A stretch of DNA of 36,664 nucleotides, from IMG/VR virus record IMGVR_UViG_3300023171_000029, positions 1 to 36,664 of that record. One strand, 5' to 3'. The first letter of the stretch is position 1. Each line of letters begins with the position of its first letter. The translations under genes and the position numbers were made by a program. Under the pieces are notes generated by a model that worked only from the letters and a program-made list of their open reading frames with translations, made no database searches and was not told where the DNA came from. This document shows, piece by piece, positions 8,884 through 14,182 of the stretch. Source of the DNA: a virus.

Positions 8884-9138
8884 TCATCTTTTGTCATAAT
8901 CTTTCAGATGTTCTTGTTTAAATTCTTCATATGCTGATACTATACCTTTATCAGGATTTTTTTGTCCAGCCAACATACCTGATGCAAATGCTAATTTTAC
9001 TGTAATCTCAGCATATTTAATAACCCTTTCATTATATGTGGGATCATTTTCTTCTTCTTTTTTATTAAATATAGCTAGTAGTCCAATTATAAATATTATT
9101 ACTCCTAACACTATTAGTATTAATCCTAAATCTGTCAT
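8884..9138 (-). CDS. Single-pass membrane protein
   Basis: 84 residues. A strong N-terminal membrane helix (LGLILIVLGVIIFIIGLLAI) followed by NKKEEEND and a helical cytoplasmic tail with the segment AFASGMLAGQKNPDKG. Similar anchored helical tails occur in several small phage proteins of unknown role. It starts downstream of the hairpin at 9153-9189. Confidence 0.75.
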   Translation of the reverse strand: MTDLGLILIVLGVIIFIIGLLAIFNKKEEENDPTYNERVIKYAEITVKLAFASGMLAGQKNPDKGIVSAYEEFKQEHLKDYDKR

Positions 9139-9152
9139 GTCTTTTGTTTTAA

Positions 9153-9189
9153 ATATGGTTATTATCTCCTATAGAAACAATAACCATAT
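9153..9189 (-). terminator. Hairpin, probable terminator of the 30-codon ORF
   Basis: Perfect 11-bp stem ATATGGTTATT/AATAACCATAT with a 15-base loop, seven bases after the stop of the ORF at 9196-9288. The following T run on the minus strand is weak (ATTTAAAAC), so it may act as an mRNA-stabilising or processing hairpin rather than a strong terminator. Confidence 0.55.
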
Positions 9190-9195
9190 AGTTAA

Positions 9196-9288
9196 TTACT
9201 TAAGTTTGTTAGTATATACAACCTTGTTGTTAAATCTAACTAGTGACTTTTTAAGTCTTTTTAATTGTACTTTGTCTTGAGTTGTCAT
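9196..9288 (-). CDS. 30-residue basic microprotein
   Basis: Reads MTTQDKVQLKRLKKSLVRFN and ends YTNKLK. It is highly basic, suggesting nucleic-acid or ribosome binding. It has its own downstream hairpin and lies just after the structured stretch 9330-9811. Supported by composition and position only. Confidence 0.45.
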   Translation of the reverse strand: MTTQDKVQLKRLKKSLVRFNNKVVYTNKLK

Positions 9289-9811
9289 AATATGTGGTTT
9301 TAAGTTGTTTACTATTTATTTATAAATCATATAAGACGTGAATTAATTATTACTCCCTCTCGTTTAAGCTTTTGACGGACCTCCCTTTACAGCTCTTCCT
9401 ATGATTAATATACCCTCTGTATTCTATTGTACGCTGTACTGTTAACTTATTGTTATTTCTAACCGTTTAGTAAGTCTTAGCCTCTGTTCAGTGATATCTC
9501 ACGATATATACAATAGCTCACCCTTGGGAAGCTGATACAAATCTAGCTTATCTTGGATATAATCCTCGTCACCGTTTTGAATATCAGGAGGATTTTAACC
9601 CTTTAATTAATCTACAATTACTTAATCGTGCTTTAATGCTTAAGACCTACTTTTATTTGGTCACCTTGATTGTATTTAATAATTAATTAGAAGAATTAAA
9701 ACCCTCTGAGAATGATACATTACTTACAGACTATAACTGCTATAAAGGAGGTCACCCCAATGTGGTTTTACCTTTATAATTTGAATTTCACATATCCGCC
9801 AAGACATATCT
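9289..9811 (-). ncRNA. Candidate large structured RNA in a 520-base gene-free stretch
   Basis: No supported gene lies here. Positions 9740-9753 pair with 9378-9392 in a 14-bp helix with one bulge (GACCTCC...GGAGGTC core), closing a domain of about 375 bases. Inside are AATCCTC/GAGGATT (7 bp), an AGCT...AGCT hairpin with GG/CC core, GTGA/TCAC, GTAC/GTAC and GACC/GGTC hairpins. Two of the helices need a G-U pair that exists only if the RNA is read from the minus strand, matching the flanking genes. The family is unknown; ornate phage RNAs such as GOLLD or ROOL are comparison candidates, not identifications. Confidence 0.5.
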
Positions 9812-10009
9812 TTATTTATCCTTTAACATTAATGGTCTCCATCTTCTTTTAGGATGTTTTTCAAATTGTATTGGATTACCAGTATTATGTTCATAATATG
9901 CATCAATAAGACCTGTATCTTTAGTACTGGCCCAACCTTCTTCATCTACAAACTCTGATACAAACTGCCAATATGCACCATATGCTTCTATAATTTCTTC
10001 TTTAGCCAT
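9812..10009 (-). CDS. Hypothetical small protein
   Basis: 65 residues, Trp/Tyr-rich (EAYGAYWQFVSEFVDEEGW), with a basic C-terminus KHPKRRWRPLMLKDK. No family recognised. It lies one base after the gene at 10011 and just before the structured RNA stretch. Confidence 0.7.
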   Translation of the reverse strand: MAKEEIIEAYGAYWQFVSEFVDEEGWASTKDTGLIDAYYEHNTGNPIQFEKHPKRRWRPLMLKDK

Positions 10010-10351: not shown

Positions 10352-10537
10352 CTAACTATATAAACCATATTCTATTCTACCAAGTATATTATCTACTTCT
10401 ATCATTCCTCCAGGAAGCTTCATATATTGAGTTGGTGTCTTACCATTTAATGCTAAAATATTACTATTAAACCATTTCTTAGCTTTCTCTTTACCAAATA
10501 CATCTATAGCATGTTTATATAGTTGTATCTTATTCAT
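10352..10537 (-). CDS. Orphan antitoxin toxin-binding domain (MbcA/ParS/Xre type, DUF2384-like)
   Basis: 61 residues from ATG 10537 (MNKIQLYKHAIDVFG). The sequence follows the toxin-binding domain of RES-Xre and MbcTA antitoxins: helix ending VFG, KEKAKKWFNS, N-x-L-NGKTP, then GG-x-x-EVDNILGRIEYGLY. The longer frame from 10579 would overlap the upstream gene by 50 bases and is not needed. Only the domain that caps the toxin is present; there is no helix-turn-helix and no RES-type toxin nearby. In known systems the domain binds a NAD-degrading RES or MbcT toxin. A phage copy could neutralise a host toxin; this is inference. Confidence 0.75.
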   Translation of the reverse strand: MNKIQLYKHAIDVFGKEKAKKWFNSNILALNGKTPTQYMKLPGGMIEVDNILGRIEYGLYS

Positions 10538-10949
10538 GTCTTTTAGATTTAAAATAGTCACATATTTGTTGAGCATCATCAGCTGATAACCATAACCAAT
10601 TAATATTAGCTATATAGAATGGATATATATACCAAGGACTAAATATAAATAGTAATATACATCCAATTGCTGGTGCTATAGTAATGAGTATATTAGCAAA
10701 TATAGACAAGGAAGTAGTATAATAATGATTAGTTACACTAGCACACCAATTATATGCTGTAAAATTACAATCATCTTTATATTCCAATCTAAACCATCTA
10801 GTTATTTGCATAGTAGGAAAACTAGGTGCTAATCCTAAACACCATATAATTACAGCTACTATATAATGACATAATTCATGAAATATAATACATGGTAAAT
10901 CTATTATATAAGCTTTAATATAATGAGGTAATAATTTATCTAATTTCAT
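10530..10949 (-). CDS. Membrane HExxH protein, possible zincin peptidase
   Basis: 139 residues. HELCHY at about residues 24-29 is an HExxH zinc-protease motif placed at the start of a membrane helix (IIFHELCHYIVAVIIW), as in site-2-protease-like and DUF3267-type putative zincin peptidases. Further hydrophobic helices lie at about 78-97 and 98-118, and LWLSADDAQQ near 120-130 could give the third, aspartate ligand. Overlaps the ParS-like gene start by 8 bases. Catalysis is inferred from the motif alone. Confidence 0.65.
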   Translation of the reverse strand: MKLDKLLPHYIKAYIIDLPCIIFHELCHYIVAVIIWCLGLAPSFPTMQITRWFRLEYKDDCNFTAYNWCASVTNHYYTTSLSIFANILITIAPAIGCILLFIFSPWYIYPFYIANINWLWLSADDAQQICDYFKSKRHE

Positions 10950-11100: not shown

Positions 11101-11246
11101 TAGTTGAATAATTTATGAGATCCTATTGGATGATGTTTATAAAATAGTCTTCTACTAATTTCAAATCTTATTTCAGCTAGAGTATTACTTCTATTAGTAT
11201 AACCATTACTTTTATTTTGTCTATATCTCTTTTTATTTGATTCCAT
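11100..11246 (-). CDS. Hypothetical 48-residue basic protein
   Basis: Starts at 11246 as MESNKKRYRQNKSNGYTNRS; very basic N-terminal half, then helix LAEIRFEISRRLFYKHH. It shares one base with the next gene. Nucleic-acid binding is plausible by composition only. Confidence 0.6.
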   Translation of the reverse strand: MESNKKRYRQNKSNGYTNRSNTLAEIRFEISRRLFYKHHPIGSHKLFN

Positions 11247-11258
11247 ATTATAGCTATT

Positions 11259-11292
11259 AAATTAGTCTCCAGAATTATCCAGAGACTAATTT
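11259..11292 (-). terminator. Strong hairpin overlapping the end of a microprotein gene
   Basis: Perfect 11-bp inverted repeat, AAATTAGTCTC/GAGACTAATTT, with a 12-base loop. The stop codon of the gene at 11275-11373 lies in the loop, so translation to the stop would disrupt the stem. The 3' side runs into AATAG, without a long T run. Confidence 0.6.
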
Positions 11293-11373
11293 GTTTAATT
11301 TATCATAGTAAGGAATCACACCTCTTTCACATCCTTTATTGAAACCTCCTTTTAAAGGACATCCATTACACAT
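11275..11373 (-). CDS. 32-residue cysteine-containing microprotein
   Basis: Starts at 11373 as MCNGCPLKGGFNKGCERG and ends KLNKLVSG. Cysteines at 2, 5 and 14 suggest a small metal or disulfide site. The same frame stays open upstream for another 16 codons with protein-like sequence (VYEQQHKILK), but no ATG, GTG or TTG occurs there, so either the start is as given or a rarer start is used. Confidence 0.45.
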   Translation of the reverse strand: MCNGCPLKGGFNKGCERGVIPYYDKLNKLVSG

Positions 11374-11422
11374 TTTCAGGATTTTGTGTTGCTGTTCATA
11401 AACTAGCTTAATTAGTATCTTA

Positions 11423-11872
11423 TTATTCTGCTATTTCAACTAAACTTAATGTAGTATGTGATACCCATTTCTCTAGTTGTTCAGATTCTCCTCTTCTATT
11501 AAGTGCAGAGTATTTAATTTGTACTTTACTATCTTTAATAGTATTGATATCTGTGATAACACAATTACCTATAACTACATATTCTTGATCATATGTAACT
11601 GGAACACCTAATTCTTTAGTTGTTTTAGGTACATATCCATATATCTTATCTGAACATACTACTTCTTGACCTATTTTAAAGTCAATATCATTAGTAAATC
11701 CACAAAGATTATTATAGATAAGACTAATTGTATCCTTCTCTATTCCTATAGCAATAATAGTCTCAGTCAACATCTCAGCATGAGGAAATGACTTATCAAA
11801 TGATGCTAATAGATTGTTAGCAATAGTGTCTACTTGTACTGTAACTTTAATTTCTTGATTGAACTTTTTCAT
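11423..11872 (-). CDS. Hypothetical beta-rich protein
   Basis: 149 residues. Predicted mostly strands, with segments IGQEVVCSDKIYGYVP and VIGNCVITDINTIKDSKVQIKY that look like small beta-barrel domains. Its start codon is preceded by the leader motif TACGACAAT shared with the genes at 12778 and 13982. Function unknown. Confidence 0.75.
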   Translation of the reverse strand: MKKFNQEIKVTVQVDTIANNLLASFDKSFPHAEMLTETIIAIGIEKDTISLIYNNLCGFTNDIDFKIGQEVVCSDKIYGYVPKTTKELGVPVTYDQEYVVIGNCVITDINTIKDSKVQIKYSALNRRGESEQLEKWVSHTTLSLVEIAE

Positions 11873-12777: not shown

Positions 12778-13023
12778 TTAAATACCAGCATTATTACATG
12801 CTTCATTAAAAGTTAAATTTCTTTGATTTACATCTGTCCATATAACAGCAGACTGAGTTAATGTAGTCTCCATACTATATTGTAATAGTATTGCTGTTTG
12901 TAATTTAGTATTAGTACGAATAATATTTGTCATAGTATCATTCATTAAATTACCTTTTAATTTAGATCTTTTATTAGCTAATTCTTCTTCAGCTAATTTA
13001 ATAATATCTTTGATTGCTCCCAT
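12778..13023 (-). CDS. Hypothetical helical protein
   Basis: 81 residues, helical, with basic stretch ANKRSKLKGNLMND. Its leader carries TTAAAACTTACGACAATG, the motif shared with 11872 and 14182. Function unknown. Confidence 0.7.
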   Translation of the reverse strand: MGAIKDIIKLAEEELANKRSKLKGNLMNDTMTNIIRTNTKLQTAILLQYSMETTLTQSAVIWTDVNQRNLTFNEACNNAGI

Positions 13024-13742: not shown

Positions 13743-13982
13743 CTATTCAGGTAAAGTAATACATATAATAGAATAAGCTTTAGTATTATCTTTAGTAAAT
13801 CCTGTTAAACAGTAATCACTACTAATATCACTAAACTTTTGAGCTTCTCTACTTCCACCTATGTTATTAAAACCACCTAAGTGATCATTAATAACAGGTA
13901 TAGTTTCAGCAGCTGTATTTTTAGTATAATCTCTTCTACTTCCTGTAGATAGATCTATAATTGTAATATAATATCTTTTCAT
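13743..13982 (-). CDS. Hypothetical small protein
   Basis: 79 residues starting MKRYYITIIDLSTGSRRDYT, with strand, polar loop and closing strand KAYSIICITLPE. The stop/start of neighbours overlaps by one base at 13982. Function unknown. Confidence 0.7.
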   Translation of the reverse strand: MKRYYITIIDLSTGSRRDYTKNTAAETIPVINDHLGGFNNIGGSREAQKFSDISSDYCLTGFTKDNTKAYSIICITLPE

Positions 13983-14182
13983 TATCTAGTTCCCCAAGCT
14001 TTAGTTAATTCATGTAAGTTATCTACATATACTAAACCACTCCAATCTTTCCACTTATCTTGGATCTCCTCTAGAGTATATATTTCATTTAAATATACAT
14101 CACCACTAATACTAGAAGCAACGTATTTGTTTGTGTCTATTATTGGTAAGTAGACACAATTTCCTATTAATATCTTTTTCAT
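13982..14182 (-). CDS. Hypothetical small protein
   Basis: 66 residues starting MKKILIGNCVYLPII, with Trp-rich helix EEIQDKWKDWSGLVYV. The leader shows AAATACGACAATG, the motif shared by three genes of this arm. Function unknown. Confidence 0.7.
   Translation of the reverse strand: MKKILIGNCVYLPIIDTNKYVASSISGDVYLNEIYTLEEIQDKWKDWSGLVYVDNLHELTKAWGTR

Follow-up and report, generated by a model that had tools for sequence, protein, structure and literature searches.

A candidate structured non-coding RNA in a gene-free gap of a crAss-like phage

In the densely packed left arm of a phage sequence, where small genes lie on the minus strand, a 523-base gap separates a 65-aa gene (9812-10009, upstream) from a 30-aa ORF (9196-9288, downstream), and the genes on both sides of it run in the same direction, on the minus strand. 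The window that we analysed is the entire virus record IMGVR_UViG_3300023171_000029 (36,664 bases), whose right arm carries most of the tRNAs and the structural genes on the plus strand. The nearest tRNA is 3.8 kb from the gap and the main tRNA cluster about 8 kb away. The terminase, portal and head proteins match the head-and-packaging families PHROGs 6681, 6547 and 11589, and the portal is 22-31% identical to those of crAss-like and related phages, Leptolyngbya phage Lbo-JY46 being the best-covered named match. We therefore call the phage crAss-like, on the basis of portal identity together with these family matches. The features of the gap are collected in Table 1.

Table 1. Features of the gap and of the RNA predicted from it (window coordinates).
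Feature	Positions	Strand	Description
Non-coding gap	9289-9811	-	523 bases; conserved RNA probably about 9811-9323, ends placed by conservation
H1	9790-9809	-	5' hairpin 9809-9802 / 9797-9790, loop UGGC
H2	9741-9778	-	local hairpin 9778-9771 / 9748-9741; from the consensus fold of both sequences, alignment centred by hand
5' arm of closing helix	9740-9753	-	partner 9378-9392; largely deleted in the relative; ordinary score
H3	9416-9730	-	UCUGUA 9730-9725 / UACAGA 9421-9416; consensus fold, both phages
H4	9588-9706	-	25-bp helix 9706-9681 / 9612-9588 with one bulge, closing an apical domain; best-supported single helix
H7	9424-9516	-	stem-loop differing between the phages, stem 9516-9508 / 9432-9424
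3' domain	9323-9408	-	nearly identical in both phages (alignments and folds)

Several other elements deserve mention in their own right. A small minus-strand protein (10352-10579) contains an antitoxin Xre/MbcA/ParS toxin-binding domain (PF09722, E = 1e-11), for which no toxin partner was identified. The minus-strand gene 10530-10949 encodes a membrane-like protein of 139 aa in which an HExxH motif (FHELCH) was spotted by eye; a Pfam search gave no match to it, and the gene is absent from the close relative IMGVR_UViG_3300022932_000001. The motif ACGACA directly precedes the start codons of several genes (12778-13023, 13982-14182 and 11423-11872) and is possibly a common translation or promoter signal. 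An inverted repeat with 16-nt arms (9153-9189) lies immediately upstream of the gene 8884-9138. A second intergenic element, short and on the minus strand (2874-2967), harbours a long hairpin with interruptions (AAUAAACCUCCCUAC...GUAGGGAGAGUUUAUU; z -4.9) and has no match in Rfam; a bidirectional terminator and a small RNA are both possible readings of it. Finally, another crAss-like relative, IMGVR_UViG_3300009151_000001, carries a tmRNA gene at 11162-11609 (75.9 bits against a cut-off of 47), in which ARAGORN agrees and finds a tag peptide.

The earlier note on this DNA had described a gene gap of about 520 bases, and this was borne out: with the standard code, the longest ORF overlapping 9289-9811 has 46 aa and is antisense. 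Reassigned stop codons are known in some crAss-like phages; nevertheless, reading TAG as glutamine or TGA as tryptophan opened nothing longer than 65 aa lying mainly within the gap, and we rejected the idea that such a reassignment hides a gene here. Stop-free fragments of the gap resembled nothing in related phages. Promoter-like sites were not commoner in the gap than in shuffled sequences, and no terminator-like site was found at its ends, the nearest such site further downstream being at 8638-8608 (minus strand).

Among the helices that the gap can form, H4 stands out, and it is not the one stressed in the earlier note. On the minus strand it scores 45, whereas shuffled sequences give 26.8 ± 3.2 with a maximum of 38, so that none of 300 reach it. 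The same bases read on the plus strand score 29, a value reached by 70 of 300 shuffles, because the G-U pairs of the helix become C-A. Among all 523-nt stretches on both strands of the window, H4 is the top helix, although others reach 42 and 40. Both H4 and its strand bias exceed chance. The argument made earlier, that some U-G pairs are possible only in minus-strand RNA, is upheld by this difference between the strands. The folding energy was only mildly better than in shuffled sequences: z was -2.8 for the gap as a whole on the minus strand and -1.5 on the plus strand, and -2.2 for a 400-nt core. Several coding stretches of the window have lower folding-energy scores than the gap, and total folding energy is therefore not decisive as evidence for structure.

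The relative named above was found through two neighbouring genes, searches based on the portal having yielded phages too distant to have this region. Its sequence of 134,893 bases ends in a 127-base repeat, and the genome is therefore probably complete and circular. Over most of its length the window matches this genome at about 99% identity, interrupted by divergent patches that look like local replacements. Within the gap, positions 9722-9523 differ at a single base, 9522-9425 agree at about half of their positions, and 9424-9328 are again nearly identical. This identity of the core cannot be taken as proof of selection, since the genomes are mostly about 99% identical and recent common ancestry may suffice. 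H4 is identical in both phages and hence offers no covariation test. The gene upstream of the gap is the same in both phages, and directly downstream of the RNA the relative has a 114-aa gene where the window has the 30-aa ORF. The alignment thus shows a core conserved in a second phage while the gene following it has been swapped. A leader serving one downstream gene is unlikely, because that gene changes while the RNA stays.

The divergent part of the gap holds the stem-loop H7. Its two versions were aligned without reference to structure, anchored on the unchanged bases on both outer sides. The stem reads CUAUUGUAU/GUACAAUAG in the window and CUAAUAUAA/UUAUAUUAG in the relative: nine of nine pairs form in both phages, three of them with changes on both sides and none broken, a pattern expected under independent change with a chance of about 0.0012 (about 1 in 800 trials). 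The domain is only about 40% identical between the phages, and still the stem is kept. Over the whole consensus structure, which was derived from the very pair of sequences on which it is tested and in which one hairpin was centred by hand, 100 pairs are unchanged, four have one-sided changes, six have double changes and none are broken. The consensus fold reaches -77.2 kcal/mol in the sense orientation versus -55.5 kcal/mol in the antisense. Diverged coding DNA treated alike gave 0-3 double changes; the antisense of the H7 domain gave nine, scattered over short helices. Covariation in two sequences is suggestive and not proof.

The 14-bp closing helix on which the earlier note had built its architecture can form and is part of the minimum-energy fold of the gap. 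Its score of 28, however, is matched by 110 of 300 shuffles, and a 26-nt stretch (9772-9747) missing in the relative takes away most of its 5' arm while leaving the 3' arm intact; on both grounds we rejected it as the core architecture. The local hairpin H2 is an alternative to this helix, with a shorter hairpin at the same place in the relative, although for the window sequence taken alone it is 8.8 kcal/mol less favourable than the closing helix. In the 5' hairpin H1, one pair has changed on both sides (C-G to U-A), two have changed on one side and still pair, and one at the base is broken. H3 appears in the minimum-energy fold of the relative and costs 9 kcal/mol in the window; in these models it is a possible, weakly indicated base of the core.

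Searches for known families returned little. At gathering scores no Rfam family matched within the gap, and up to E = 10, in 761 bases searched, the single match was at chance level (Gut-1, 14.9 bits against a cut-off of 50). The models of GOLLD, ROOL and the group I and II introns gave no match up to this threshold. Neither ARAGORN nor Rfam up to E = 10 detected a tmRNA, with its tRNA-like domain and tag reading frame, in the window, and a diverged tmRNA was rejected on these grounds. The likeness to GOLLD and ROOL proposed earlier thus finds no support, since neither covariance model matches and the relative has lost the closing helix.

Further copies were equally scarce. Viral, phage, plasmid and genome collections yielded no third sequence. 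Covariance models built for the core helix and for the 3' domain, run over 1.38 Mb of mostly crAss-like phages, and a two-anchor pattern placed around the variable stem recovered the known relative only. Sixteen-base patterns from the core and the 3' domain retrieved, beyond this relative, isolated matches without wider similarity. One match, in a Chitinophagales MAG, was dismissed as chance, as it lies inside the gene of a 1327-aa protein and shares only 22 of 27 bases. These searches may have passed over records very close to the window, and more than two copies may be in existence.

Taken together, we consider it about an even bet (probability roughly 0.5) that the gap encodes, on its minus strand, a lineage-restricted structured non-coding RNA. 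A structured minus-strand RNA, as the earlier note had read the locus, is still the best reading, without the single closing helix around which that RNA had been drawn. The RNA would be about 400-490 nt long and transcribed as part of a leftward, probably early, transcript, with hairpin domains arranged in a row about a core that holds the 25-bp helix; one peripheral stem-loop would have been exchanged or have diverged with its stem kept. Such an RNA would be made, be stable and be released from the transcript. RNase III could plausibly cleave a near-perfect duplex of 25 bp, and H4 might be its substrate in this release. The released RNA would then act in trans, its variable stem-loop meeting a changing partner.

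A cis-acting element in the leftward operon is an unlikely explanation, albeit one to be taken seriously. H4 would then be an RNase III processing or mRNA-stability site, or the gap a long 3' UTR of the 65-aa gene, with no separate functional RNA. The common direction of the flanking genes, the gap's want of its own promoter or terminator, and the upstream gene shared by both phages all fit this explanation; against it, the gap is far longer than a processing site needs and is made up of several domains, in one of which double changes have left the pairing intact. Less probable still is that there is no functional RNA, the gap being a non-coding leftover or a spacer where genes turn over, and its helices the product of chance and inverted repeats. 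Adjacent genes are indeed gained and lost, the folding energy is unremarkable for the window, and two copies only are known; yet H4 is strand-specific and unequalled in the shuffles, the H7 stem is kept in a domain that has otherwise largely changed, and the stop-free fragments match nothing in related phages. A diverged member of a known family (GOLLD, ROOL, tmRNA, group I or II intron) is very improbable, since the phage setting, the tRNA cluster and the tmRNA of another crAss-like phage speak for it but none of these models matches and ARAGORN finds no tmRNA.

Should the structured RNA of the preferred reading be real, RNA-seq and deletion tests would have a defined locus to address, and the divergence of H7 between the two phages would amount to a natural experiment on the role of that domain. 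More tentatively, it may represent a previously undescribed class of phage non-coding RNA, confined to one environmental crAss-like lineage, in which the core stays constant and a stem-loop that can be swapped might determine the target or partner; we regard this as possible but doubtful. To our knowledge, crAss-like phages have not been reported to carry a large structured RNA, and a literature search joining the two subjects, with partial coverage of the literature, found no paper on the subject by title or abstract.

Two known large RNAs and one processing system invite comparison. ROOL, whose function is unknown, is a large structured RNA encoded by phages and prophages, frequently close to tRNA islands (PMC12286853). 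The candidate shares with it a large predicted RNA in a phage, and differs in having no Rfam match and in being found in two closely related phages only; its distance from the tRNA cluster is about 8 kb. GOLLD, a large phage RNA also often near tRNA islands, combines one conserved and one variable region (PMC12286853). Many of its members exceed 800 nt, whereas the candidate has at most about 490-520; in GOLLD the 5' half varies, while in the candidate it is an internal stem-loop, and the GOLLD model does not match it. A homo-oligomeric cage is a further mark of GOLLD and ROOL. RNase III processing sites occur between early genes of phage T7. The candidate, whose processing is hypothetical, is much larger than these sites and has several domains, but like them it would place a long duplex between codirectional phage genes.
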